The notes below the pieces were generated by a model, which was given only the letters and a program-made list of their open reading frames with translations, did no database searches and was not told the origin of the DNA. This document shows positions 2,644-19,095 of a stretch of 64,000 nt of DNA, piece after piece. The stretch's first letter is position 1. Each line of letters opens with the position of its first letter. The stretch spans positions 62,001-126,000 of the forward strand of contig JANSXP010000010.1 in the NCBI GenBank assembly GCA_024742875.1, written 5' to 3'. Source of the DNA: Planctomycetaceae bacterium. GTDB lineage: Bacteria; Planctomycetota; Planctomycetia; Planctomycetales; Planctomycetaceae. The translations under genes and the position numbers were made by a program.

Positions 2644-3135
2644 TTAATTGAGCCAGACCTTGAGCCTGGCGAGACGACGCTGAAGAGGGACTTCCTCGCG
2701 TGCGTCGCGAGGGGGATTGATGGGCGATTTGGTGGCGGGCTGACCGAGGGTGGTGATAGGCGTGGCCACTCCCACCGCTGTCGGAATGGGAAAACGTGAA
2801 ACCAGCACGGCGGAGTCCGTGGGGACGTCCTGACAGCAACTGCCACAACATCGACCACCGCAATCCGGCGCCGGGGAATCCCGCGAATCTACGCTGGCAG
2901 ACTGGTCACCATCACAGCAGGAGGCTGGCACACAGCAGGAGGCTGGCTGGCAGCAGGACGCTGTGGTGATTCTGCAGTTCTCACAGCCAGACTGTGTCTG
3001 CTGAACGTCACTGGCGGAATCCGCCAGGAGGCGCTTTGTGCAGCAATCACACGCCACCGTGACCTGCTGGCAGATCAGCGCCAGCCACGCACAGGAGGCG
3101 AGTAAAAATCGTGTTGTCGTACAGACACATGCCAT
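2644..3135 (-). CDS. Cysteine-rich secreted protein
   Basis: A 163-residue protein with an N-terminal hydrophobic signal (TRFLLASCAWLALICQQVTVA). About 16 cysteines follow in the first 100 mature residues, including a short repeat (SCCQPASCCVPASCC) and RCCGSCC. The last 60 residues have no cysteine, are rich in Pro and Thr and end with a basic stretch (LQRRLARLKVWLN). I do not recognise the family. It lies 74 bases upstream of the shorter cysteine-rich gene and diverges from the acyltransferase gene at 3424. The ATG at 3135 is chosen because it begins the signal peptide; the open frame runs further upstream but is low in plausible content. Confidence 0.65.
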   Translation of the reverse strand: MACVCTTTRFLLASCAWLALICQQVTVACDCCTKRLLADSASDVQQTQSGCENCRITTASCCQPASCCVPASCCDGDQSASVDSRDSPAPDCGGRCCGSCCQDVPTDSAVLVSRFPIPTAVGVATPITTLGQPATKSPINPPRDAREEVPLQRRLARLKVWLN

Positions 3136-3423: not shown

Positions 3424-4845
3424 ATGGCCATTCCGGAACCTGACGATCTGTTTCCTCTGCCGTTAACTGCTTTTGAGCAGTTCATGCTGGCCGATGAGTC
3501 GGAAGAATATCCGATGGTCTTCTACCTGCAGACCCAGCTGAGCGGTGTGGTGGATCGGAAGGTGATGCGACGGGCCGTCGATGAGACACTGGCTCGGCAC
3601 CCACTGCTGGGCTGCCACGTGCGGAAGGTCGATGGACGTCTGTGCTGGGTTTGGGCGGGCGAACAGATTCCAGAGGCCGACTGGGACCCGCAACACTGGC
3701 AATGTGAGCAGCCATGGCGTCGGTCGATCGACCTGAAGACAGAGATTGGTCTGCGTGTCTGGGGAGAGCAGACGGATGAGCACGCCACGTTGACGCTGCA
3801 GTTTCATCACGCCTGCTGCGATGGCATTGCCGCCGCTCAGTTCCTGGAAGACATCGCCGTCAGCTACGCTCGGCACTATGCACTCTGTCATCAGACGGGA
3901 GAAGAACTGCCGGAACTGCGACCGCTGGATCTGCAACTGCTGAAGACCCGCAACCATCGAGCGGGGCGGCGTGTGGCCGACGTTCATGGCGGGCTGCTGC
4001 GCAGAATCCGTGTGGTGCTCAAATACACGCTTCGCTATCTGCGGCAGATCAAGCTGCCCGTTGCGGCCGATGACACACTGGTGCCTTCGGATCCACAGCA
4101 GGGGCTGGGCCTTTTGGAGACTCGGCTGGATCGCAAACAGACACGGGCGTTGCGCGATGCGGCCCGCCATCACAACGCCTCACTGAACGACCTTCTCGTG
4201 TGTGAGTTGATGCACACGGCCCATCACTGGAATCACCAATTGCCAGGCTGGCAGCCACCCAAACGATTGTGGAAGCAGCCCACGTGGTGTGTGCTGGTGC
4301 CGACGAGTCTGCGGGGGCCATCTGATACCAGTCTGCCGGCCAGCAATGTGGTCAGCTATGTTTTTATGGCGCGGAGCCTGTCTCTGCTGGAGGACCCCGC
4401 TGGACTGCTGCATTCGATCCGTGACGAAATGCAGTTGGTTCACAAACACCAGGGGGGCTGGCTGTTTGTCCAGGCCATCGAAACCATGCAGAAGATTCCG
4501 GGGCTGATGCGACTGATCATGAAGCGGACGGCCAACAGCTGCATGAGTACAACCGTGCTTTCACATATGGGGAACCTGCTGAATGCGGTGGGCAGTCGAC
4601 TTCCGCGACAGGATGGCAGGATTTGCATGGGCAATCTGCTGGTCGATCAGATTGGCGGTGTGCCGCCCGTTCGTCAGGGCACGGCTGTTGCGTTTTCCAC
4701 CATGCTGGTGGGCGGTCAGCTGGTCATCAGCATGCGGTGCTGTGCTCGTCGTTTTTCCAGACAGGCGGCTGAGCGGCTCCTCGAGCAGTTTGCCAGGCAA
4801 CTGCGATCGCACAGTGAAAGTCGTCCACTGCTCGCAGACCAGTAA
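3424..4845 (+). CDS. Condensation-domain-type acyltransferase (first paralogue)
   Basis: A 473-residue protein of the chloramphenicol-acetyltransferase-like superfamily that includes NRPS condensation domains, wax ester/DGAT synthases and mycobacterial PapA acyltransferases. The catalytic motif HHxxxDG is present as HHACCDG at residues 128-134. The N-terminal block (FPLPLTAFEQFM, then TLARHPLLGCHV) and the C-terminal block (AVAFSTMLVGGQLVISM) follow the usual pseudo-dimer layout. The likely reaction is O- or N-acyl transfer from an acyl-CoA or carrier protein. The acceptor is unknown. It is the first gene of a same-strand group with a paralogue, a desaturase and an MMPL transporter. No strong Shine-Dalgarno precedes the ATG. 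Confidence 0.82.
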   Translation: MAIPEPDDLFPLPLTAFEQFMLADESEEYPMVFYLQTQLSGVVDRKVMRRAVDETLARHPLLGCHVRKVDGRLCWVWAGEQIPEADWDPQHWQCEQPWRRSIDLKTEIGLRVWGEQTDEHATLTLQFHHACCDGIAAAQFLEDIAVSYARHYALCHQTGEELPELRPLDLQLLKTRNHRAGRRVADVHGGLLRRIRVVLKYTLRYLRQIKLPVAADDTLVPSDPQQGLGLLETRLDRKQTRALRDAARHHNASLNDLLVCELMHTAHHWNHQLPGWQPPKRLWKQPTWCVLVPTSLRGPSDTSLPASNVVSYVFMARSLSLLEDPAGLLHSIRDEMQLVHKHQGGWLFVQAIETMQKIPGLMRLIMKRTANSCMSTTVLSHMGNLLNAVGSRLPRQDGRICMGNLLVDQIGGVPPVRQGTAVAFSTMLVGGQLVISMRCCARRFSRQAAERLLEQFARQLRSHSESRPLLADQ

Positions 4846-4964
4846 ATCCCACCAGTCAGGTGTGTTTTTGAACACTACGTGTCTGCGTTTGGTTTTCGCC
4901 AGCAAAAATACGGGGCATCAGACGTTCTGATCTGACGGCAATGAGAGTCACAACGACAGAGAAA

Positions 4965-4995
4965 GGGGCTTTTGGGGTGTTGGGGAGGTTTGGGG
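4965..4995 (+). other. Four-tract G-quadruplex motif
   Basis: Four runs of GGGG (4965-4968, 4974-4977, 4982-4985, 4992-4995) are separated by loops of 5, 4 and 6 bases on the sense strand. It lies about 100 bases upstream of the second acyltransferase start, probably within its leader or promoter. The sequence meets the strict G4 pattern; folding and function are not shown. Confidence 0.6.
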
Positions 4996-5098
4996 AAACT
5001 GTCGTGTTGTTTGCCTGGGAGGGGAAGTAGTCTTGGGCGACCCACCTAGGGGTATCTGCTTATGCGAAAACTCGATTGTTCCGATCCCGGACACGGAA

Positions 5099-6592
5099 AT
5101 GACTACTGCGAAGTGTGACAAATCAATGGCCGTCAGCCAGTACTTCCCACTGCCGCTGACCGATTTTGAGCACTACGCGTTCAACGATGATTCCCCCGAA
5201 CATCCGATGGTGATCATCATGCGGACGCTGCTCGAGGGCCCGGTGGACGCTGGCGTGCTGGAGAACGCCATTCGCTCTGTCATCAAAGACAATCCGCTGC
5301 TGCACAGCACCATCGATGGCAGCCGCTGGTCACCTCGCTGGAAGCTCGCCAAACACCTTGAGCCGTCCTTCACGGTCGTCGACACCGGCACGGCAGATCC
5401 CTCTGAGCAGTGCGCCGCGCGACGTATTGATCTGACGCAGCAAACGGGTGTGCAGTGTGAATTGCGGCGCGGTGCGAATCGATCTGTCCTGGTGACCTGG
5501 TTTCACCACGCCTGCGTGGACGGAATCGGCGCGATTCGGTTTCTGGGGGACGTGTTCGCGGAATACGGTCAGCACACGTCGGCCCCCGATCAGGAACGAC
5601 CGTCCCTGCGGACGATTGATCATTCCTTGCTCGCGCGGCGGGGGACCCGCCGCATGCCAGGCAATGGCCGCGATCGGCGGGCGCCTCTTGTGCACACCCT
5701 GATGGAGACGTTTCGGCTGTTCGGTCGTCGTGCCTACCGTCTGCTTCGTCAGCCACCATCGCTGCAGCCTGCCGCCAACACGGCCAGCCCCAACATTATC
5801 CAGACCCGGATACTGGATCGACAGGTCACGCGACGACTGAAGCGTCTGGCGGCCGAGCAGGGCGTCACCACCAACGACCTGTGCATGCTGGTGTTTCTTG
5901 ACCAGCTGGAACGGTGGGCACCCGGCAACGCGCACCGCAGACCGGCAGACCTGTTCCGTGTGCTGATGCCCGTGAGTATGAGAAATCCGGAACATGATCA
6001 GATTTCTGCCTCAAATGTGCTGAGCTACGTTTTTCACAGTTACCGGCGACAGGAGATTCGTGACACGAATCAGCTGCTGGCGAACATTCATCGCAAGTCG
6101 CATCAGATGCTGACGCGCAACGAAGGGGCCGCCATGCTCTGGGGCTTTGCCATTGCTCGCCGCATTCCGGGGCTGTTCCGATTTTCCCGTCGCGTCCAGC
6201 CGGATTTTGCCACGACCGTGCTCACCAATGTTGGCGAGGTACGGCGACTGTTTGAGAATCGCTTTCCTCTGAAAAAAGGTCGCGCCGTGGCGGGCAACGT
6301 GCTGATTCAGAGTGTGGATGGCGTTGCGCCCGTTCGCGAGAACACCAATATCGCCATGGCCTTCGGAACCTATGGCGGGGAACTGATCATGCATGTCAGT
6401 CGCAACACGCGACTGTTCTCGGAAGCGGATGTGGATGTCCTTCTCGATGCTCTGGTCGATCGGATCACCGGACTGACCGAAATCCCGGCGACGCTCGTCA
6501 AAGATCTGGCCATGCCGGGACCATCTGCGGTCGGCCCATCAGCGACGGAGCTGTCTTCCGCCTCGGATAGTTCCTCCCGCGTGCCTGTTTGA
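5099..6592 (+). CDS. Condensation-domain-type acyltransferase (second paralogue)
   Basis: A protein of about 497 residues, paralogous to the preceding acyltransferase. It shares the N-terminal pattern FPLPLTDFEHY and the catalytic motif HHACVDG at residues 136-142, followed by IGAIRFLGDVF. The C-terminal half keeps the SNVLSYVFHSYRR and AMAFGTYGGELIMHVS blocks seen in the first copy. The frame is open from 5033 (TTG), but the ATG at 5099 is more likely; an ATG at 5126 is an alternative. The stop is 21 bases before the desaturase, which suggests co-transcription. Having two copies suggests two acylation steps or two acceptors, as in PapA pairs, but that is inference. Confidence 0.82.
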   Translation: MTTAKCDKSMAVSQYFPLPLTDFEHYAFNDDSPEHPMVIIMRTLLEGPVDAGVLENAIRSVIKDNPLLHSTIDGSRWSPRWKLAKHLEPSFTVVDTGTADPSEQCAARRIDLTQQTGVQCELRRGANRSVLVTWFHHACVDGIGAIRFLGDVFAEYGQHTSAPDQERPSLRTIDHSLLARRGTRRMPGNGRDRRAPLVHTLMETFRLFGRRAYRLLRQPPSLQPAANTASPNIIQTRILDRQVTRRLKRLAAEQGVTTNDLCMLVFLDQLERWAPGNAHRRPADLFRVLMPVSMRNPEHDQISASNVLSYVFHSYRRQEIRDTNQLLANIHRKSHQMLTRNEGAAMLWGFAIARRIPGLFRFSRRVQPDFATTVLTNVGEVRRLFENRFPLKKGRAVAGNVLIQSVDGVAPVRENTNIAMAFGTYGGELIMHVSRNTRLFSEADVDVLLDALVDRITGLTEIPATLVKDLAMPGPSAVGPSATELSSASDSSSRVPV

Positions 6593-6613
6593 ATTCATTG
6601 ACTGGTTGAAGTT

Positions 6614-7579
6614 ATGTCACTGAGACTTCTGCTGCGACTGCTGGCGTTCCCCATGGTGGCCTGTGCCGGACAGGTGATCTGGATGTGGAATTTCGATCCC
6701 ACCGACCTGCTGTCCTCAGCGATCTGGATTCCCGTTCTGGCGTACTGCTGGTTTTGTATCGGCGGGCTTTCTCACGAGGTTGTGCATGACAATCTCGACC
6801 TGGGAAAAAGAGCGGGTGCATTGATCGCGCGGGTGATTGGCGTGCTGCTGTGGATTCCGTATTCGGTGTACCGGGAGGTCCACATGCGGCATCACGCTTA
6901 CCTCAATACGCCGCTCGACTGGGAGATGTGGCCCTATACCGATCCCCAGGCATCGCTGCGATTTCGCCGCGTGTTTGTCTGGTTTGATATCCTGCTGGCC
7001 TGGATTATCACGCCGTGTATCTGGGGGCGGATCTGCTTCTCGAAGTCCTCCCCCGTCGCGCCCGAGGTGCGTCGTGAAATGAAGATGGAATATCTGGTGA
7101 TGGCCATCATCTGGGTGACTATGATCACCACCTGCGTCTGTGTTCACGTTAACGGAATTTTTGTGTTTCGGCCGGACATGCTGATCTTTGCCATTCCGCC
7201 GCTGCTGGCCACGGTCGGCAACGGCTTTCGCAAGATCATGGATCATGTGGGCACGGCCAGTTTTGATCCGCTGCACGGCACAAGGACCATTGTGGGCAAA
7301 AGCTGGCTGACTCGCCTGTTGTCGTTCTTCAACTTTGATCTGGCGATTCATGGCCCGCACCATCGCTATCCGAAGCTCGATCATTCCCGGCTGCGCGGAC
7401 GGATGGAGGAAATCGAAGCAGAGCGTTCCAGCGAGACGTTTCCCGTCTTTCCCAGTTTCTGGTCAGCCTTCGTGGATACGATGAAGACGATCATCAGGAA
7501 CCCGGGCGTCGGTGTGAATGCGGGCTGTGCAGCGGACCTTAGTCATCTGCCACTGGACAAGCAGGCGGCCGCTCGATAG
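6614..7579 (+). CDS. Membrane fatty acid desaturase/hydroxylase family protein
   Basis: A 321-residue membrane protein with the three histidine boxes of the di-iron desaturase/hydroxylase superfamily: HEVVH (54-58), HMRHH (90-94) and HGPHH (246-250), plus a further His at 211 (IMDHVG). Hydrophobic segments flank the boxes. The expected chemistry is O2-dependent desaturation or hydroxylation of a fatty acyl or other lipid substrate, with diiron at the cytoplasmic face. The spacing also fits beta-carotene hydroxylase/ketolase-like members, so the substrate is open. It starts 21 bases after the second acyltransferase and is followed 68 bases later by the MMPL transporter. This context argues for modification of an exported lipid. 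Confidence 0.85.
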   Translation: MSLRLLLRLLAFPMVACAGQVIWMWNFDPTDLLSSAIWIPVLAYCWFCIGGLSHEVVHDNLDLGKRAGALIARVIGVLLWIPYSVYREVHMRHHAYLNTPLDWEMWPYTDPQASLRFRRVFVWFDILLAWIITPCIWGRICFSKSSPVAPEVRREMKMEYLVMAIIWVTMITTCVCVHVNGIFVFRPDMLIFAIPPLLATVGNGFRKIMDHVGTASFDPLHGTRTIVGKSWLTRLLSFFNFDLAIHGPHHRYPKLDHSRLRGRMEEIEAERSSETFPVFPSFWSAFVDTMKTIIRNPGVGVNAGCAADLSHLPLDKQAAAR

Positions 7580-7647
7580 ACCGTCAGGGGTCTGTACGGC
7601 AGGTCTCATCCCGTCAGGCGTTGTTTGCGTTGTTACGATGACGGCCC

Positions 7648-9900
7648 ATGAAACTGCTGGCAGAAATCTGTGTTGAACGTCGCGCGATCGGATGGCTGGT
7701 CGTGCTGCTGCTCAGTGTTCCTCCGATCCTTGGCGTGGTCGGCTGGCGAATCGCTGAGCCGCTGCCGTCCGGCTGGGTGGCCCCGGAAGTCATCGAGGAA
7801 CTGCGCGCAGCGGAAGAGCAGTTTCAGGCCAGTGCCTCCCTGGTGCTGGTGCTCGAATGCGACGATTTCTTTCAAGCGGATCGTGTAGCTGCACTCCGGG
7901 ACACGGTGGCTGATCTGCGTGAACTGCCGTCTGTCAGGTATCTGGCCTGGCCGGGTGACGTGCAGGAAATCAGTTTGTTTGGTCGCCGTACGGATTTGCT
8001 GCCAGCCACCGAGTCTGAAGATCCTGTGGACTGGCCGTCCGTGCGGGAACGACTCGTTTCCCATCCTCTGGTGGCTGGCAATCTGATGTCGCGCACCGGC
8101 ACAACCATGCTGGTCGTGATGGACGTGGTTTCGCGGACAGATACCCCCACGATTCGGCAGGTTGCGGTGTCCGGTCTGGCGCCTGCCGGGATCCGCACCC
8201 GCGTGACGGGCACCATGGCGCTGTACGACGTTCATGATCGAGCGCTGCAGGAAGATCACCTGCGGATTCAACTGCTGGCCTACTGCCTGGTGGGTTTTTT
8301 GCAGCTGGTGATTTTTCGCCGGCCCATCGCGATCATCGTGGCTTGTGCCGGGCCGGTTGTCGGAGTGGCGTGGACCATGGGCTGGCTGCTGTTGATCGGA
8401 CAGGCAGAAAATGAACTGGCAAAAATCATTCTGCCGGTGATGGTCATCATGATTGGATTTACCGACGGCGTTCACCTGATAGTCCGCCTTCGTCAACTGC
8501 GTGCAGTCGGTCGGCTGCCTGCAGATTCCGTGAGACAGGCCATCCTGCAGACCGGTCCGGCCTGTTTTCTGACATCCGTCACCACTGCCATCGGCTTTGG
8601 CTCACTGATGATGTCGCAGTCCGATATGATCGCCGGGTTTGGTCGCGCGTCGGCGATTGGTGTGGTCGTGACTTTTCTGGCCGTCGTGATTGTCAGCCCG
8701 CTGCTGGCAATGTCAGCTGTCGGGCAGAGAATGCACGTCAGCGCTCACAGTGATCCACTCGCTCGGCTGATGAAGCGTCTGACTGGCATCGTCAGCTTCT
8801 CCAGCCGATTTGCACGCAGTGTCACGATCACAGGGATCGTGGTGACCGGGCTGTGCCTGGTGGCCTCCTCGCAACTGGTGCCTGATGATCGCGTCAGCGA
8901 TCGCGTGCCGCAGGACTGCGAGGAATGGCAGGCCATGCACCACTGTGATCGGAACGTGGGCGGAATCCGCAGTGCCCGCCTGATGATTGGCTGGCCCGAG
9001 GATGCTTCGCGCCGAGAGATCTGGGAGGTTGTTCGCCGTGGTGAACGGCTGCTGAGCGAACAGCAGGCGTTTAGTAATCCCCAGTCGATTCGGACGGCCA
9101 TGACCGTGGTGAAGCGTCCTCCGGGCAAAGAAGTCACTTTGTTCGTCAGTCGGCTGCCAGAGAGCCTGAAGCGGCGATATTTTCGTGAAGACATTCGCAC
9201 GGCCCTCGTGACGGCTCGGATGCAGGATCTTGGTTTTGCCGGATTCGCACCCGTGTTCGCACAGGTGGAGCGGCAATTGAAACAACTCCAGACCGAGTAT
9301 CCGCTGTACACTTTTGACTTTTACAGCGATGTGGTGGTCGAAGGTCGCGTGGTCAGTCAGATGATTCATGAGATGATGGACAGCCTCATGATGGCGGCCG
9401 TCATCATTTTTGGCATTCTGGCGGTCGGGTTTGGTTCGCTGCGGACAGGGTTGATTTCCATTATTCCCAATCTCATGCCACTGGCTGTCTCCGGCGCGAT
9501 TCGACTGTGGCTGGGCAGTTCGATGGGCGTGGCCGGCGCGTGTTCTTTCGCGATTTGCCTGGGAATCGCCGTGGATGACACCATTCACTATCTGTGGCAC
9601 TTCCGGCATGAGCGACGACGGGGGGCGACCGCTCTGCAGGCCAATCAGGCCACGTTTGTTACGGTGGGCAGCGCACTGTTGATGACCACTGTTGTGATGA
9701 CGGCCGGTCTGGGCACGGTCCTCACCAGTCGTCTGCCACCCCACGTCAATTTCGCTGCAATGGCCGTGACCACACTGGCCGTGGCGCTGCCAGCCGATCT
9801 GCTGTTCCTGCCGGCTTTGCTCACGCTGTTTCCCGGACGAGTGGCCGGAGATGATGCGACGCAGCCGCCGAACGTCGACCCACCGGGGGACGTCGACTAA
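7648..9900 (+). CDS. MMPL/RND family lipid exporter-like transporter
   Basis: A 750-residue protein with the duplicated RND layout. One membrane helix near residues 14-32 is followed by a large extracytoplasmic loop and a helix bundle around 205-355; then a helix near 390-405, a second loop and a bundle around 575-735. Conserved intramembrane blocks are GFTDGVHLIVRL in the first half and GIAVDDTIHYLWHF in the second, each followed by a TxxTTAxGFGSL-like segment. This matches MMPL or sterol-sensing-like RND proteins rather than tripartite drug pumps. Such proteins export lipids or hopanoids using the proton gradient. The adjacent acyltransferases and desaturase suggest it moves their product. 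Confidence 0.85.
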   Translation: MKLLAEICVERRAIGWLVVLLLSVPPILGVVGWRIAEPLPSGWVAPEVIEELRAAEEQFQASASLVLVLECDDFFQADRVAALRDTVADLRELPSVRYLAWPGDVQEISLFGRRTDLLPATESEDPVDWPSVRERLVSHPLVAGNLMSRTGTTMLVVMDVVSRTDTPTIRQVAVSGLAPAGIRTRVTGTMALYDVHDRALQEDHLRIQLLAYCLVGFLQLVIFRRPIAIIVACAGPVVGVAWTMGWLLLIGQAENELAKIILPVMVIMIGFTDGVHLIVRLRQLRAVGRLPADSVRQAILQTGPACFLTSVTTAIGFGSLMMSQSDMIAGFGRASAIGVVVTFLAVVIVSPLLAMSAVGQRMHVSAHSDPLARLMKRLTGIVSFSSRFARSVTITGIVVTGLCLVASSQLVPDDRVSDRVPQDCEEWQAMHHCDRNVGGIRSARLMIGWPEDASRREIWEVVRRGERLLSEQQAFSNPQSIRTAMTVVKRPPGKEVTLFVSRLPESLKRRYFREDIRTALVTARMQDLGFAGFAPVFAQVERQLKQLQTEYPLYTFDFYSDVVVEGRVVSQMIHEMMDSLMMAAVIIFGILAVGFGSLRTGLISIIPNLMPLAVSGAIRLWLGSSMGVAGACSFAICLGIAVDDTIHYLWHFRHERRRGATALQANQATFVTVGSALLMTTVVMTAGLGTVLTSRLPPHVNFAAMAVTTLAVALPADLLFLPALLTLFPGRVAGDDATQPPNVDPPGDVD

Positions 9901-11975: not shown

Positions 11976-13046
11976 ATGATGACAACACTCATGGATGAGC
12001 GTTGCCGACAGTCGCTTTGTTTGTGCCTTCTGCTGCTGAGCGCAACAGGATGTGTCCAGACTCAGTATCTCGCCAATGAGGTTCCCCGGCAATTTGCCGC
12101 GCGGCCGATTCGCAATTACGCGACCGTGGACTTTACGCCCTACGCGCGGAACATTGCGGACAACAACACCATTCAGCCGGGCGATCAGCTGTCCGTGAAA
12201 CTGGATACCGGCACTCACGCCGAAGACTCAGAACTTGACTGGTCTGTCAGCGTGGACGAAACGGGCGAGACGTCTCTGCCCAATATCGGCGCCATTCAGC
12301 TGGCGGGGCTGACACGCTCCCAGGCAGAAAAACAGATTGTCACCGCCAGCCAGCAGCGCGATGTGTTCCTGACGCCTACCGTTGAAGTTTCCGTGCGGGA
12401 ATCCGAGGAGCGGACTGTTTATGTCCGCGGTGCTGTGAAAGAGCCGGGCCCCATCGTCGTCCGTGGTGCCAGCGTCACCGTGGCTGATGTGCTGGCCCGC
12501 GCCGGCGGGCTCACCAGCGATGCGTCGGGCAACATCAGCGTGTCTCAGGGGGAGTCTGTTTCCAGCGGGATCATCCGTGCAGTGGGCAGCAGCGAATCTG
12601 CCGCCACGCCGGCCGTGCAGGTCAGTCTGGCAAACACCTCACCGGAAGAACTGGCCCGGCTGAACGTCACAGATGGGGCCGTCGTGAACGTGGAAGCCAC
12701 TCCGCCACGGCCCATCAAGGTTGTGGGGGTCATTCAGAATCAGGTGGTGGAAGTGCCGTCCGGGCTGAACGTGCGTCTCCTGGACGCTCTCACTCTCGCG
12801 GGTGGCCAGACCTATTCCAACTGGATCAGTGACAAGGTGACCATCATTCGTCGCGTTCCCAATCGCGACGAGACCATTCGAATCAAGGCATCCATCCGGC
12901 GGGCAAAGAATGATGATGCTGAAAACCTGCTCCTTGCACCGTACGACATCGTCAGTGTGGAGGAGAATCTCGTGACATTCACGCTGTCAACTCTCAGTGG
13001 TCTGTTTGGCGCTGGAGTCAGCGCCGCTCAGATTGGCGCATTTTAG
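11976..13046 (+). CDS. Polysaccharide export outer-membrane lipoprotein (Wza-like)
   Basis: A 356-residue protein with a lipoprotein-type signal ending LLSATGC (Cys 26). A polysaccharide biosynthesis/export domain begins at about residue 66 (IQPGDQLSVKLDTG ... TSLPNIGAIQLAGLTRSQAEKQI) and is followed by two SLBB-type segments (VYVRGAVKEPGPIVV, IKVVGVIQNQVVEVP). The family forms the outer-membrane channel for capsule or exopolysaccharide. It is the first gene of a four-gene same-strand cluster with a co-polymerase kinase, a polymerase/ligase and an initiating sugar transferase. The C-terminus lacks an obvious amphipathic Wza-type helix but ends in a hydrophobic stretch (LSTLSGLFGAGVSAAQIGAF). 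Confidence 0.9.
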   Translation: MMTTLMDERCRQSLCLCLLLLSATGCVQTQYLANEVPRQFAARPIRNYATVDFTPYARNIADNNTIQPGDQLSVKLDTGTHAEDSELDWSVSVDETGETSLPNIGAIQLAGLTRSQAEKQIVTASQQRDVFLTPTVEVSVRESEERTVYVRGAVKEPGPIVVRGASVTVADVLARAGGLTSDASGNISVSQGESVSSGIIRAVGSSESAATPAVQVSLANTSPEELARLNVTDGAVVNVEATPPRPIKVVGVIQNQVVEVPSGLNVRLLDALTLAGGQTYSNWISDKVTIIRRVPNRDETIRIKASIRRAKNDDAENLLLAPYDIVSVEENLVTFTLSTLSGLFGAGVSAAQIGAF

Positions 13047-13089
13047 GCAGCAACCGCACTCGTCGCCGTCGGCACGGACAGAACGGACC

Positions 13090-15486
13090 ATGGAACCATA
13101 CTTACTGGAACAGGTAGAAACGGCACAGCCCAGCGGCCTGCACGCGGTCCTGCGATTTCTTCGTGTGGTCAACCGGCAACGCATGATTCTGGTGGGCGCT
13201 CTGGCGGCCGCCGCGTTTTTGGGGTTTGTGCGATTTAAGCGTCTGCCCAGACAGTATTCGTCGTCCATGCGATTGATGGTGACGCAGCAGGAAAGCAGCG
13301 GCGAGGACGGTGTGTCCAGTCAGCAGGGCGCAGGTCTGGCTGGCTACAAGCAGCTGCTTCTGAGCGATGTTGTTCTGAGCATGACGATTGAGAAACTGAA
13401 GCCACTGCCTCCGGAGCTGACGGGCGTTGTCGACAAAGACCTGTGGCTGCCTGTGCTGCGCAACATGCTGTCTGTCAAAGACGATCCGGCGGAGCAGACC
13501 CTGGAGATTTCGTGCGTGTCCGGGCGGCCGCAGTCCACGCTCGAGGTGCTGGATACTTTGCGGGAAACCTCCAAGACGTACATCGCCGACTTTCAGGAAG
13601 TGAATTCCCAAAAACTGCGTCGCGAGCTGGAGGCCAACCGTAGTACGGTTGAGACGCGACTCAGCGAGAAAGAACTGGAGTTGCTGAAATCGCGGCGCGA
13701 AAGCGGCGACCTGATGCTCACTGAAGGTAAAGACGAACTGCACCCGCTGGCCCAGCGCGTCAGCCGGCTCACGGAAGAACTTTCGGCCATTCAGAAACGC
13801 CGGCTGGAGATTCAAAGCACGCTGGAGATGGCCAGTCAGCTGGTCGCCACCAATGCTGACCTGACTGTGGCTGTGCAGAAGCTTGGCAGTCTTGTGGGCG
13901 AGCAGGTCATCGAGAGGATGCCGGGCACTGGTGGGATGACCACCAAAATGATCGAGGAAATGGAAGCTGAACTGAAGCGGATGGAAGCGGAGATGGATGC
14001 TCTGCGACCACACTTCGGGGCGCGGCACTCGGACATGATCCGCCGGCAGAAGACCATCTCTTCCAAACAGAGTCAAATTGCACAGGCACGTGAGGAAATG
14101 CGTCGCCAGGTGCTGGTTGGCATTCGCGAGCCACAGGTCGGGCAGTGGCTGCTTGGGCATCTGCAGGCCGAACTGGCGGCCACCGTGCAGCTGGAAAAGA
14201 GCGTGATTGCCGAATACTCGCTTGCCGAATCAGAGGCGCAGTCGCTCAGCGACGAGCTGGCTCAGATTCAGAGCATCGAACGCGAGGCTGAGACGCTGCG
14301 GAATCTGCATCAGTCTCTGCTGACGCAGCTGAACTCTCTGGATTTCAGCAGCAGTAACGGCGGCTACCAGGTGGCGTTGCTGAGTAACCCCCTTCTGCCC
14401 TCCAGCGCCAGCTATCCCATCATGCACCAGGTTCTGGGCATGTTTTGTGTCGTTGGGTTCCTTGCGGGCATCGGTATCATCTACGTCCGCGATCTACTCG
14501 ACGATCGCCTGCGTTCGCCGGAAGAAGTGCGTGAGCAGCTGGGACTTCCCGTGCTGGCCGTGATTCGCAAACTTCCGGATCGCGAAGTGGAACAGGCAAA
14601 GATTTACGTCCACGGTTTTCCACAGACACCGCACGCCGAATGTTTCCGAACGCTGAAGACATCGCTGACACTGTCCGCGTTGGAGACCAAATGCCTGGCG
14701 ATCACCAGCACGGAGGCGAGCGAAGGCAAAACCACGACCACCGTGAACCTGGCGGCTTCGTACGCACAAACTGGTGTGCGGACACTGCTGATTGATGCCG
14801 ACATGCGTCGCCCGGTGCTGTCGCGCCTGCTGGAGATTCGCGGGCAGGGCGGGTTGTCAGAAGTCCTGCGGGCCGAATCTGACGTGGCCGGCATGGCGCG
14901 GGAACGCATTGTGCAGACCGACGTCCCCCTGCTGGATGTGCTGCCCTGCGGCCCTCGGATACTTAATGCCGGCATGCTGCTGTCGATGCCCACGCTGCCT
15001 GATTTGCTGGACTGGGCGGTCTCTGAATATGACCAGGTGATCGTCGACTGTCCGCCCACGCTCCCCGTCAGTGACGCGGCCATCGTGGGCCGCTATGTGG
15101 ATGGCATGCTGTTCCTGATGAACCCTGACAAGACGCATCGACGCAGTGTCGTGCGGGCCGTGGATCAGCTGCGAAGCATGGAACTGAAGATTGTCGGGGT
15201 GGTGGCGAACACCAGCCTGAATGAAGAGAAGAGCGGCTATGGCTACCAGTACGGTTATGGCTATGGCTACACGAGCGATTACACATACGGGCACGACGAA
15301 GAAGATGACTTCTATGATTCGGCCGTGAGCAGCGCTGCCACAGGTGCGACGATGAATCCACTGACGGAGACTCGCGTCCCTGCTGATGCACCCACTGGTG
15401 CGGCAGCCAGTGATCTGACGGCACCCAGCGTCGAAGCGCCGGACGGAGACGGTGACCTGGACGATGAGTTTGAAAGGGCCGCCTGA
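13090..15486 (+). CDS. Wzz/Wzc-type polysaccharide co-polymerase with BY-kinase domain
   Basis: A 798-residue protein. An N-terminal Wzz domain has a membrane helix near residues 36-52 and is followed by a long coiled-coil periplasmic region (about 170-440). A second helix lies near 445-465, and a C-terminal cytoplasmic tyrosine-kinase domain follows. Walker A is SEGKTTTT with Lys 547; Walker A' is LLIDADMRRP, and VIVDCPPT is Walker B. The tail carries a Tyr cluster (GYGYQYGYGYGYTSDYTYG), the usual autophosphorylation site. The frame is open from 12997, but the ATG at 13090 follows the previous stop by 43 bases. Its stop overlaps the next start (TGATG). It regulates chain length and export through phosphorylation. 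Confidence 0.92.
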   Translation: MEPYLLEQVETAQPSGLHAVLRFLRVVNRQRMILVGALAAAAFLGFVRFKRLPRQYSSSMRLMVTQQESSGEDGVSSQQGAGLAGYKQLLLSDVVLSMTIEKLKPLPPELTGVVDKDLWLPVLRNMLSVKDDPAEQTLEISCVSGRPQSTLEVLDTLRETSKTYIADFQEVNSQKLRRELEANRSTVETRLSEKELELLKSRRESGDLMLTEGKDELHPLAQRVSRLTEELSAIQKRRLEIQSTLEMASQLVATNADLTVAVQKLGSLVGEQVIERMPGTGGMTTKMIEEMEAELKRMEAEMDALRPHFGARHSDMIRRQKTISSKQSQIAQAREEMRRQVLVGIREPQVGQWLLGHLQAELAATVQLEKSVIAEYSLAESEAQSLSDELAQIQSIEREAETLRNLHQSLLTQLNSLDFSSSNGGYQVALLSNPLLPSSASYPIMHQVLGMFCVVGFLAGIGIIYVRDLLDDRLRSPEEVREQLGLPVLAVIRKLPDREVEQAKIYVHGFPQTPHAECFRTLKTSLTLSALETKCLAITSTEASEGKTTTTVNLAASYAQTGVRTLLIDADMRRPVLSRLLEIRGQGGLSEVLRAESDVAGMARERIVQTDVPLLDVLPCGPRILNAGMLLSMPTLPDLLDWAVSEYDQVIVDCPPTLPVSDAAIVGRYVDGMLFLMNPDKTHRRSVVRAVDQLRSMELKIVGVVANTSLNEEKSGYGYQYGYGYGYTSDYTYGHDEEDDFYDSAVSSAATGATMNPLTETRVPADAPTGAAASDLTAPSVEAPDGDGDLDDEFERAA

Positions 15487-18158
15487 TGCAAACTGCTGCA
15501 GAAACAGTCCTTTCCGCTGATTCGCAGCCTGCCTCACAGGTCGTCGCGCATGGTCTCCTGCCCGTTGTGCTGCGGACGCTGGACCGTTTGGTGGACCTCG
15601 GTTTGGCGATCGTTCTGTTTGTGGTGCCGTTTACGATGGCCGGAATTCGGGAAACCGGAGTTGCCGTCTTCGTGTGTGCGGCGCTGACAATGTCTGTGGC
15701 ATGGGCCGTGAGGGAACTGCTGCAGCCGCAGTCTGCCACACCCATGTCCGTGGCGTTTCTGATTCCAGCGGCGGCCGCCGCCCTGGTGTTTTGTCAGCTG
15801 ATTCCTCTGCCTGCAGCGCTGCTGGAACGGCTGTCTCCGTTTACCGCCCGTTATCTGCCAGTCTGGAATACGGAACACTTTCTGTTTCCGGACACGACCC
15901 GCTGGTCACGTCTCTCGCTGACGCCGTCCCTCACACAGTCAGGGCTGGTGCTGCTGGTGGCTTATGGACTGTTCTTTCTGACGCTCACTCAGCGGATTCG
16001 TTCGGCTCGTGATATTGATCGAGTGCTCAAGTGCGTCTGCGTCACGATGGGGCTGATGGGCCTGGTGGCCCTGGGCCAGTTGTTTTTTCCCAACGATCGC
16101 TATCTGTGGACGTTTGAGTACCCCTTTCGTCCGGCCAGCTGGCCGGCCAAAGGCACATTTACCAATCAAAATCACTTCGCCCACTTTCTGGCTTTGGGAA
16201 TTGGTCCACTGCTGTGGTGGTGGAAATCGCTGTTCGCCCGATCGGCCGACGATCGAGCGGCCACCTCCGACTCGCAGTCCGGTCCTTCTTTTGGATCGGG
16301 ATCCCGCGGCACACTTTCCAATCGTCAGATGGTGCTCACCGGCATCGTTGTGATGGTGGCGTTCGCCGCCGTGCTGAGTCTGTCGCGGGCCGGCATTCTG
16401 GCGTTTGGCACCGCGGCATTGATTTCCGTGCTCGGCCTGGGAATTGAGCGGCGAAGAATTCTGCTTTACGGATTGCCCGCGCTGCTGTTTGTTGGCGCGG
16501 CGCTGCTGACATTTGGGACAGACTCGCTGCAGGATCGCGTGGACACGGTGGTCCACGCCCAGTCGCTTCAGGAGATCAGTCCCGGACGATTTCAGCTTTG
16601 GTCCTCCCTGCTTCGCGGGCTGCCGCATTTCTGGATGGCAGGCGCTGGCGTCGGCAGCCACGCGTACGTCTACCCGGTGTGGATGGAGACAGATCCGGAT
16701 GTGCGATTCTCACACGCCGAATCCGGCTATCTGCAGGTGCTGGTGGAAACAGGTGTCCCCGGCCTGGTGCTGGTCGTGGCCGCCCTGCTGATGGTCCTGG
16801 GCTGGTCGTGGCGCGCCTGGCGGAGAAGTCGCCCTGGTGGGCCTGTGAGAATACGTGTCAGTATTTTGACTGCTGGCATTGTTGTTTCAGCCGGTCACGC
16901 GTTTGTTGACTTTGCCTGGTACGTTCCCGCCTGCACGATCTTTGTGGCCGTGCTGGCGGCATGCCTGTGTCGCCTGAGTCAGATGACTGTACGTTCCAGA
17001 CAGCCCGCCACCCGCTGGCCGGTCGCCCAGGCGTTCGCCATTTTACTGCTGGCCGCTCCCGTGACGGAACTGGCGGCGGAAGTCGTTTTTGCCGACGCCG
17101 CGGCTGAGTCCTCCTGGCTAAAATATCGTCGTGATATCGTCGAAGCGGGACGTGAGGACCTTTATGACTCACCCGATGCACTGGATGAGCGGCTGGACCG
17201 CATGATTGCCAGCCTGGAAGAGTGCCTGCACCAGGATCCTTCCCAGTTTCCGGCGATGTCAGAGCTGGCCACGCTGTATCTGCGGCGCTTCGAGCATGTT
17301 CAGGCTGGCAGCGACAATCCCATGTCGCTGCGTGAAATCAAGAACACGGTAGAGACGGCCGAATTTGAAAGCCCGCAGCAGATTATGGAGTGGCTGGAGC
17401 AGGCGTTCGGGCCGCACGTCATCGACCTGTACCGAGGTCTGGTGATGGCCGAACGGGCTGTCAGCGGTCATCCGCTGCGTGGTGAAACCTACCTGAATCT
17501 GGCTCAGCTCGGCTTTCTGAAGGGCATGCCGGCGTCTGCCGAAGCGCGGCTGGTCGAGCAGGCCGTGTTGCTGCGACCAAGCAAGCCCCCCGTTCTGTAT
17601 TTTGCAGGCATGGTGGAGGCCGAACGTGGTCAGCTGGACAAAGCGTGCGAATGGTGGAAAAAAGCGTGGCACCAGTCTCTGGAGATCCGGCCGCTGATTC
17701 TGGCAGGTTTGGATTCCACGCTGACCCCACGGGAAATTGTCTGGCACATGTCGCCCGGCGAACGCGGTTTGTGGGAAATGTTTGTCCGCTATCGCGTCAA
17801 TGAGCGACCAGACGCTCAACGGTGGATCGCCTCTTATTACGCCTCGAAGTTTGCCGAAGTCCTCGAAACGCACACCCAGAAGGACGCCTCATTCTGGCTG
17901 CGTGCCGCAGACATCTTTGAGTTTCTGCCAGGGCACGAACAGGCGGTGAAGTGTCTGGAGCAGGCTGTTGCCGCACAGCCATCCAGCTACGACATTAAGA
18001 AGCGTTATGCACTCGCTTTGCAGCGTGCTGGTCACTCGGAACAGGCACGCTCCGCTTTGGAGTGGTGCCTGATGAAGCGGCCGGAAGATCTGCAGGTGAT
18101 TCAGGCACTGCAGCCGGAGGGGAGCGACTCAGCAGGAGGCGGAGTGCGTGGCATCTGA
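15486..18158 (+). CDS. O-antigen ligase/polymerase-family membrane protein with TPR tail
   Basis: An 890-residue protein. The first ~480 residues hold about ten or more membrane helices, with a Wzy/WaaL-type region (FTNQNHFAHFLALGIGPLLWWW; later ISPGRFQLWSS, then AGVGSHAYVYP and HAESGYLQVLVETG). These blocks match the O-antigen ligase domain family used for polymerising or ligating polysaccharide repeat units in the inner membrane. The last ~350 residues are soluble and look like TPR repeats (for example LNLAQLGFLKGMPASAEARLVEQA and KRYALALQRAGHSEQARSALEWC). It starts inside the stop codon of the kinase gene, a sign of translational coupling, and overlaps the next gene by 11 bases. Confidence 0.85.
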   Translation: MQTAAETVLSADSQPASQVVAHGLLPVVLRTLDRLVDLGLAIVLFVVPFTMAGIRETGVAVFVCAALTMSVAWAVRELLQPQSATPMSVAFLIPAAAAALVFCQLIPLPAALLERLSPFTARYLPVWNTEHFLFPDTTRWSRLSLTPSLTQSGLVLLVAYGLFFLTLTQRIRSARDIDRVLKCVCVTMGLMGLVALGQLFFPNDRYLWTFEYPFRPASWPAKGTFTNQNHFAHFLALGIGPLLWWWKSLFARSADDRAATSDSQSGPSFGSGSRGTLSNRQMVLTGIVVMVAFAAVLSLSRAGILAFGTAALISVLGLGIERRRILLYGLPALLFVGAALLTFGTDSLQDRVDTVVHAQSLQEISPGRFQLWSSLLRGLPHFWMAGAGVGSHAYVYPVWMETDPDVRFSHAESGYLQVLVETGVPGLVLVVAALLMVLGWSWRAWRRSRPGGPVRIRVSILTAGIVVSAGHAFVDFAWYVPACTIFVAVLAACLCRLSQMTVRSRQPATRWPVAQAFAILLLAAPVTELAAEVVFADAAAESSWLKYRRDIVEAGREDLYDSPDALDERLDRMIASLEECLHQDPSQFPAMSELATLYLRRFEHVQAGSDNPMSLREIKNTVETAEFESPQQIMEWLEQAFGPHVIDLYRGLVMAERAVSGHPLRGETYLNLAQLGFLKGMPASAEARLVEQAVLLRPSKPPVLYFAGMVEAERGQLDKACEWWKKAWHQSLEIRPLILAGLDSTLTPREIVWHMSPGERGLWEMFVRYRVNERPDAQRWIASYYASKFAEVLETHTQKDASFWLRAADIFEFLPGHEQAVKCLEQAVAAQPSSYDIKKRYALALQRAGHSEQARSALEWCLMKRPEDLQVIQALQPEGSDSAGGGVRGI
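18134..18139 (+). promoter_or_regulatory. Shine-Dalgarno that sets a GTG start
   Basis: AGGAGG lies 8 bases upstream of the GTG at 18148 and inside the end of the upstream coding region. It supports the GTG as the true start of the sugar transferase. Confidence 0.75.
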
Positions 18159-19095
18159 ACATCCCCCGACAACCCAGACAACCAGAACTCAGTCCGAAGC
18201 AACCCCGGAGCTCATGTCACCAGTTTCCCATTCGTCTGTTCCTGCAGCCAGTCCGTTAACGACGGGGGTCGGCCGCTATCTGAAGCGCGGTCTCGACATC
18301 TGTCTGTCTTTGCCAGTCGTCGTGATTCTGCTGCCACCCGCGGCGGTTGTGACGTGGCTGGCTCATCGGCTGCAGTCACCAGGTCCGTTGCTGTTTCGAC
18401 AGGAGCGATGTGGACTGGGTGGCCGGCGTTTCACCATCCTGAAATTCCGCACGATGAATCCGGAGAGAGCGGATGCTGCGTCCGAAACCCAGTCACGCAT
18501 CTTCCCGATAGGCAATATCCTGCGGAAAACCAAGATCGATGAGATTCCGCAGTTTGTCAACACGCTCATCGGCACGATGTCGATCGTGGGGCCCCGACCC
18601 CATCACTTTGCGGACTGCGAACAGTTTGGAAAAGAGGTGGAAGAGTATTCCCTGCGGACTGTGGCCAAGCCAGGTATCACCGGGCTGGCGCAGTACAAAG
18701 AATATCGGGGCGATTTTGAGTGGAACTGTGTGAGCAACCGGGTCCAGCGCGATCTGGCCTACATTCGCGAATGGTCTTTGCTGCTCGATCTGCGGTTGAT
18801 CGTGAAGACGGCCAACGTCATTCGTCGCAAATGCTGGCAGGCTGCCGTCCATAAAGTGGAACATCTGCCAATGGTGGAAAAAGCGGGCCCTCGGCTGGGC
18901 ATCTTCTCGCCGTTCACTGCGTCCGCACGTCCGGTAAAACAGAGTACTGCCCTCATCGCCGAGGAGGACTCGGTCACCGACAGCACGCGTCATGACATCA
19001 GCGCAGGTCAGGCTGTGACTGACAGTGTCCCGCCGGCTGTGTCCGCTGAGGATGGCAGCCGAGAGGACACGAAGGACACGAAAAAGGCGGCCTAA
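18148..19095 (+). CDS. Polyprenyl-phosphate sugar transferase (exopolysaccharide initiation)
   Basis: A 315-residue bacterial sugar transferase that starts polysaccharide synthesis by moving a sugar-1-phosphate from a nucleotide sugar to undecaprenyl phosphate. It is the short form: a leader of about 40 residues, one membrane segment (CLSLPVVVILLPPAAVVTWL), then the catalytic domain with GPLLFRQERCGLGGRRF, LKFRTM, the DE pair in KTKIDEIPQF, and SIVGPRP. The long-form N-terminal membrane domain of WbaP/WcaJ is absent. The last ~75 residues are hydrophilic and probably disordered. The GTG start with AGGAGG lies within the previous gene. Together with the three genes before it, this makes a near-minimal Wzx-less export cluster. 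Confidence 0.92.
   Translation: MASEHPPTTQTTRTQSEATPELMSPVSHSSVPAASPLTTGVGRYLKRGLDICLSLPVVVILLPPAAVVTWLAHRLQSPGPLLFRQERCGLGGRRFTILKFRTMNPERADAASETQSRIFPIGNILRKTKIDEIPQFVNTLIGTMSIVGPRPHHFADCEQFGKEVEEYSLRTVAKPGITGLAQYKEYRGDFEWNCVSNRVQRDLAYIREWSLLLDLRLIVKTANVIRRKCWQAAVHKVEHLPMVEKAGPRLGIFSPFTASARPVKQSTALIAEEDSVTDSTRHDISAGQAVTDSVPPAVSAEDGSREDTKDTKKAA

Follow-up and report, generated by a model that had tools for sequence, protein, structure and literature searches.

Gene content of the locus

The locus described here lies in the 8.18-Mb genome of a planctomycete taken to belong to the genus Fuerstiella, within a 64,000-nt stretch of contig JANSXP010000010.1 (hereafter the window), and comprises four intact open reading frames (ORFs) on the forward strand, between positions 3424 and 9900. 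These code, in order, for two acyltransferases (AT1 and AT2), a desaturase or hydroxylase (DES) and a transporter of the MMPL family. A sequence-only reading of the window had singled out these four genes, with these families and in this order, as a candidate lipid cassette, and its description was accurate: the ORFs are open, the motifs are present and the Pfam matches are clear for FA_desaturase and MMPL, although weak for Condensation and WS_DGAT. The gaps it gave for the last two junctions, 21 nt between AT2 and DES and 68 nt between DES and MMPL, were exact, and AT2, DES and MMPL form the tight unit of the cassette. AT1 and AT2 are 280 nt apart, counting from the ATG at 5126. This is most likely the start codon of AT2, because the orthologues start a few residues ahead of a common FPLxL stretch, with the ATG at 5099 and the TTG at 5033 as possible alternatives; our AT2 queries carried 16 extra N-terminal residues with respect to ATG 5126, which did not affect the matches. 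Six-frame reading of the AT1-AT2 gap (4846-5125) in six genomes revealed no conserved ORF, leading us to reject the presence there of a small gene, such as one for an acyl carrier protein. The gap may contain a second promoter; a promoter-like scan scored no better than with shuffled sequences.

AT1 (3424-4845, 473 residues) and AT2 (5126-6592, 488 residues) are standalone, single-domain members of the condensation/coenzyme A (CoA)-dependent acyltransferase superfamily, with HHxxxDG motifs at 3805-3825 (HHACCDG) and 5504-5524 (HHACVDG), respectively, and a two-lobed condensation-type fold as judged from the AT1 model. Neither is embedded in a nonribosomal peptide synthetase (NRPS) module with carrier and adenylation domains, and the NRPS condensation domains of the host genome are on another contig. 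Of 50 relatives, 42 have the whole motif, and its second histidine (H129 in AT1, H128 in AT2) and its aspartate are invariant in all 50. The best full-length curated model for both proteins by E-value, spanning much of each, was the WS/DGAT model TIGR02946, of the same superfamily, yet AT1 (46.3 bits, 2.7e-12) and AT2 (43.2 bits, 2.4e-11) did not reach its cut-off of 309.95 bits. The Pfam Condensation model (PF00668, cut-off 30.6 bits) matched AT1 below the cut-off (27.6 bits, 1.5e-6) and AT2 narrowly above it (35.8 bits, 5e-9). Also below their cut-offs were the matches to the WS/DGAT model PF03007 (15.9 bits for AT1 and 17.8 for AT2; cut-off 23.6), to the NCBIfam PapA5 model (20.9 bits, 1.4e-4, and 25.1 bits; cut-off 396) and, for AT1, to PapA_C (PF16911, 17.5 bits; cut-off 30), to which AT2 had no match.

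A tree of AT1 and AT2 with PapA5 and the NRPS domains of the same genome had reference branches of 3-8 changes per column, making the placement unusable, and we therefore relied on profile scores and fold matches. A profile of the 50 relatives, compared per domain with the PDB, scored 67 bits with a PapA5-type structure, 46 bits with the best NRPS domain, and 44 and 37 bits with wax-ester synthases. The fold comparison, made with the AT1 AlphaFold model only (mean predicted local distance difference test, pLDDT, 91), returned first 8s6l (Z 32.3, 407 residues matched), a PapA5-annotated protein from Pseudomonas aeruginosa titled AzeD dehydratase, followed by several NRPS condensation domains (Z ca. 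28) and PapA5 (1q9j, Z 25.6). AT1 is thus similar to PapA5 and AzeD over the whole length of the fold, with an identity of only ca. 16-18 %. Since 8s6l ranked first but PapA5 fell below the NRPS domains, the fold backs membership of the superfamily more than of the PapA group. By profile score, these acyltransferases do not group with the NRPS domains.

DES (6614-7579, 321 residues) is a membrane di-iron enzyme with three histidine boxes (HEVVH, 6773-6787; HMRHH, 6881-6895; HGPHH, 7349-7363), whose histidines are invariant in 13 relatives, and a clear match to FA_desaturase (PF00487, 105 bits, 7.1e-30; cut-off 29.7). A sequence search against solved structures in the PDB gave no real match. 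The closest folds to the DES model (pLDDT 85) were 8xks_K and 8xqw_M (Z ca. 20), which are chains of chloroplast Ycf2-FtsHi complexes, followed by AlkB (Z 12.2) and SCD1 (Z 6.9). From its sequence, DES could equally possibly catalyze a desaturation or a hydroxylation.

The transporter gene (7648-9900, 750 residues) codes for a resistance-nodulation-division (RND) permease with a clear MMPL match (PF03176, 79.6 bits, 2.7e-22; cut-off 20.5). The aspartates of its GFTDG (8455-8469) and GIAVDD (9562-9579) motifs are invariant in 13 relatives. Its best curated model was that of the hydrophobe/amphiphile efflux family HAE3 (TIGR00921, 153.1 bits, 7.8e-45), below the cut-off of 351.9 bits, and it was far from the cut-offs of both the mycobacterial-type MMPL model TIGR00833 (88.5 of 874.7 bits) and the model for the hopanoid transporter HpnN (60.8 of 751.85 bits). 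Judged by these curated cut-offs, the protein is HAE3-like and neither an MmpL nor an HpnN.

Conservation of the cassette within Fuerstiella

We searched 118 relatives with each of the four cassette proteins. The complete order AT1-AT2-DES-MMPL occurs in at least four Fuerstiella genomes (that of the window, G003, G004 and G005). In G001 and G002 there is AT1-AT2-DES with no adjacent MMPL gene, the contig of G001 ending 68 nt past DES, and G007 has DES-MMPL, on a contig that starts inside DES and with one break in the MMPL frame. The prediction that relatives would keep the four-gene order was thus correct within Fuerstiella, if partially for G001, G002 and G007, and failed beyond the genus. 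Identity to the cassette orthologues was 60-63 % for AT1 (five Fuerstiella genomes), 55-59 % for AT2 and 58-63 % for MMPL. When the loci were compared protein by protein, they had in common the cassette genes and, away from these, three weak matches (32-34 % identity). A conserved block with unrelated flanks is the pattern expected of a functional unit, and the cassette is more than a chance neighbourhood.

The phylogenies of AT1, AT2 and DES coincide in the pairs G003+G004 and G001+G002, and the MMPL tree agrees on both, with an unsure position for the MMPL of the window itself. These results indicate that the cassette is inherited as a block within Fuerstiella. In G006 (ca. 96 % complete), searches with AT1 and AT2 gave no match, the closest MMPL (36 %) is not of the cassette type, and all that is left of DES is a relic in two frames.

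The two genomes with no MMPL beside DES carry a cassette-type MMPL gene elsewhere, in what we designate a sister cluster. That of G001 (L105, contig 298) contains an AT1-like gene, a class III aminotransferase, an AMP ligase, another acyltransferase and the MMPL gene; in that of G002 (L104, contig 64) the neighbouring genes are fragmented and the MMPL gene is intact. Both of these MMPL proteins nest among those from the cassettes, beside that of G007 (99/98). An intact MMPL gene amid decay fits its being kept in G002 for AT1-AT2-DES, although there could be another reason for its preservation.

An older AT2-DES pair

In several planctomycete lineages beyond Fuerstiella, an AT2-type gene is situated directly upstream of DES, a point that was absent from the sequence-only reading. 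Scanning 84,980 species genomes with a DES profile identified 31 loci. When 49 DES proteins were placed in a tree, the 20 that are linked to an acyltransferase or belong to a cassette formed a single clade (100/97), which includes the DES of G007 even though its acyltransferase link is unseen owing to the contig start, whereas the 29 unlinked proteins were all outside; this distribution requires one change on the tree. AT2-DES, as an exclusive pairing, is therefore the older core of the cassette, shared with other planctomycete lineages where MMPL does not accompany it.

Seven AT2-DES loci other than the cassettes also include an Mpo1-like gene: L173 (2037-2444), L174 (9984-10430), L178 (1788-2114), L181 (6973-7491), L183 (4058-4393), contig 807 of G005 (L108, 2692-3123) and contig 120 of G034 (L115, 1075-1620). 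Three of these genes that were tested scored ca. 91-110 bits with PF06127, and that of G005 scored 92 bits; most genomes of the family have, elsewhere, an Mpo1-like paralogue with ca. 50 bits. As Mpo1-like proteins belong to a 2-hydroxy-fatty-acid dioxygenase family, this association hints at a hydroxy-fatty-acid chemistry. It is conceivable, if somewhat doubtful, that AT2-DES, with the Mpo1-like gene in several lineages, constitutes an undescribed biosynthetic module of planctomycetes that makes modified acyl lipids of a new class; in Fuerstiella, the addition of MMPL and of another acyltransferase would have turned the product into an exported surface lipid.

Putative role of the cassette

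On balance, we consider it somewhat more likely than not that the four genes are a genus-level cassette for lipid assembly and export, responsible for the acylation, desaturation or hydroxylation, and export of a putative fatty-acylated compound. Its substrates, order of reactions, acceptor, chemistry of each step and export of the product we infer as follows. AT1 and AT2 would act in the cytosol, probably in succession, using the HHxxxDG histidine to transfer fatty acyl groups, supplied by CoA or a carrier protein, to an acceptor with a hydroxyl or an amine; this acceptor would be acylated once or twice. DES would introduce a double bond or a hydroxyl into the chain transferred by AT2, or into the AT2 product, and MMPL would use the proton gradient to carry the acylated product over the inner membrane, in the direction of the periplasm or the outer membrane. 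No polyketide synthase (PKS), acyl-AMP (FadD-type) ligase or carrier protein was found in the cassette, nor a PKS or ligase in its near flanks, suggesting that ordinary fatty acid metabolism would supply the acyl groups.

Several observations weigh against this role. The cassette lacks any activating enzyme of its own, in addition to a PKS and a carrier protein; it is not family-wide, and the AT2-DES pairs outside Fuerstiella have no MMPL beside them. Even within the genus, MMPL is not adjacent to AT1-AT2-DES in G001 and G002, neither AT1 nor AT2 has a match in the whole of G007 (ca. 90 % complete), and MMPL-type genes are numerous in the genomes of the relatives.

An alternative, which we consider unlikely, is that only AT2 and DES are a functional pair, with AT1 and MMPL being separate genes that are adjacent by descent; the pair would then modify a lipid that stays inside the cell or in its membranes, such as an unsaturated wax-ester-like lipid or an acylated lipid with a storage or membrane role, and nothing would be exported. 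This agrees with the maintenance of AT2-DES beyond Fuerstiella without MMPL, with the 280-nt spacing between AT1 and AT2, with the location of MMPL elsewhere in G001 and G002, and with WS/DGAT as the best full-length model. However, AT1 is present in all six genomes that have a cassette AT2, MMPL follows DES in all of these except G002 and, at a contig end, G001, the four genes were jointly lost or decayed in G006, and the WS/DGAT score reaches only 46 of 310 bits.

It is less plausible still that MMPL is a pump for drugs or general amphiphiles and that the remaining genes serve to modify or detoxify a compound that can be acylated. HAE3 is indeed the best curated match of the transporter and there are MMPL paralogues without such acyltransferases, but within Fuerstiella the cassette-type MMPL follows the distribution of AT1-AT2-DES, and it is also part of the biosynthetic sister cluster of G001, with its aminotransferase, AMP ligase and additional acyltransferase. 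Finally, a carotenoid-type hydroxylase or ketolase function of DES, with the acyltransferases esterifying carotenoids or sterol-like alcohols for transport to the outer membrane by MMPL, is very improbable: the best NCBIfam match of DES is the beta-carotene hydroxylase CrtR (1.8e-4), PF00487 also covers carotenoid enzymes and MMPL shows similarity to the sterol-sensing domain, but the CrtR match scored 20.7 bits (cut-off 475), sterol-sensing similarity is general among RND permeases and the flanks of the cassette showed no carotenoid gene.

The proposed assembly and export cassette resembles, in outline, the sulfolipid locus of Mycobacterium tuberculosis, where PapA2 and PapA1 acylate sulfolipid-1 before its transport by MmpL8 (PMC6463170). 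Both loci combine two HHxxxDG acyltransferases with one MMPL-family transporter, but the window cassette contains a desaturase and lacks Pks2, FadD23, Chp1 and Sap, and its proteins are below the curated cut-offs for PapA and the MMPL subfamily. The parallel with PapA-MmpL systems drawn in the sequence-only reading holds in outline and does not extend to a PKS or FadD-type ligase or to the PapA and MmpL families as curated; inclusion of the cassette in that class, like the label of surface lipid, is tentative.

In line with the proposed role, relatives of AT1 and AT2 at eight loci lie within type I PKS clusters or next to them, and in both G047 and G055 they adjoin other MMPL genes. One of the relatives, G113 (L116-L117), has a type I PKS of 3565 residues, a reductase, an aminotransferase, an AMP ligase, a condensation-type acyltransferase and a divergent MMPL gene, and six other genomes of its family show a similar spacing between acyltransferase and MMPL. 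Such an arrangement recalls the zeamine-like or secondary-lipid (Pfa/PKS) clusters with a thioester reductase and an aminotransferase, of which the G001 sister cluster is a reduced form with MMPL; the window cassette differs in lacking the PKS, reductase, aminotransferase and ligase. We also considered the biosynthesis of stieleriacine (N-acyl tyrosine), which was dropped because its paper names no desaturase, transporter or condensation enzyme.

Upstream of the cassette, the reverse strand codes for a neighbouring pair of small cysteine-rich proteins (2252-2570 and 2647-3135) whose N termini resemble signal peptides. Neither matched Pfam, the first having been searched without its initial residues, and the pair adjoins a gene for an extracytoplasmic function sigma factor (1620-2189). 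Downstream (11976-19095) there are polysaccharide export genes (Poly_export/SLBB and Wzc-like), followed by ORFs that read as ligase-like and sugar-transferase-like; a functional link with the cassette was discarded, as these genes have no counterpart beside the cassette in the relatives. On contig 130 of the genome of the window (L102, 7132-11294) and in G004 (L111, 6292-9785), an MMPL gene is directly adjoined by one for a PF01757 acyltransferase, which in G004 extends the end of the cassette by a fifth gene.

A search of the available literature returned no paper joining a planctomycete, MMPL, an acyltransferase, a desaturase and a gene cluster. If our interpretation is correct, the export of lipids by two acyltransferases and an MMPL transporter, as in mycobacterial cell walls, would have a planctomycete counterpart. 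The envelope lipids of planctomycetes are poorly mapped, and AT2-DES offers a compact genetic handle, since the loss of these two genes should eliminate a single lipid.

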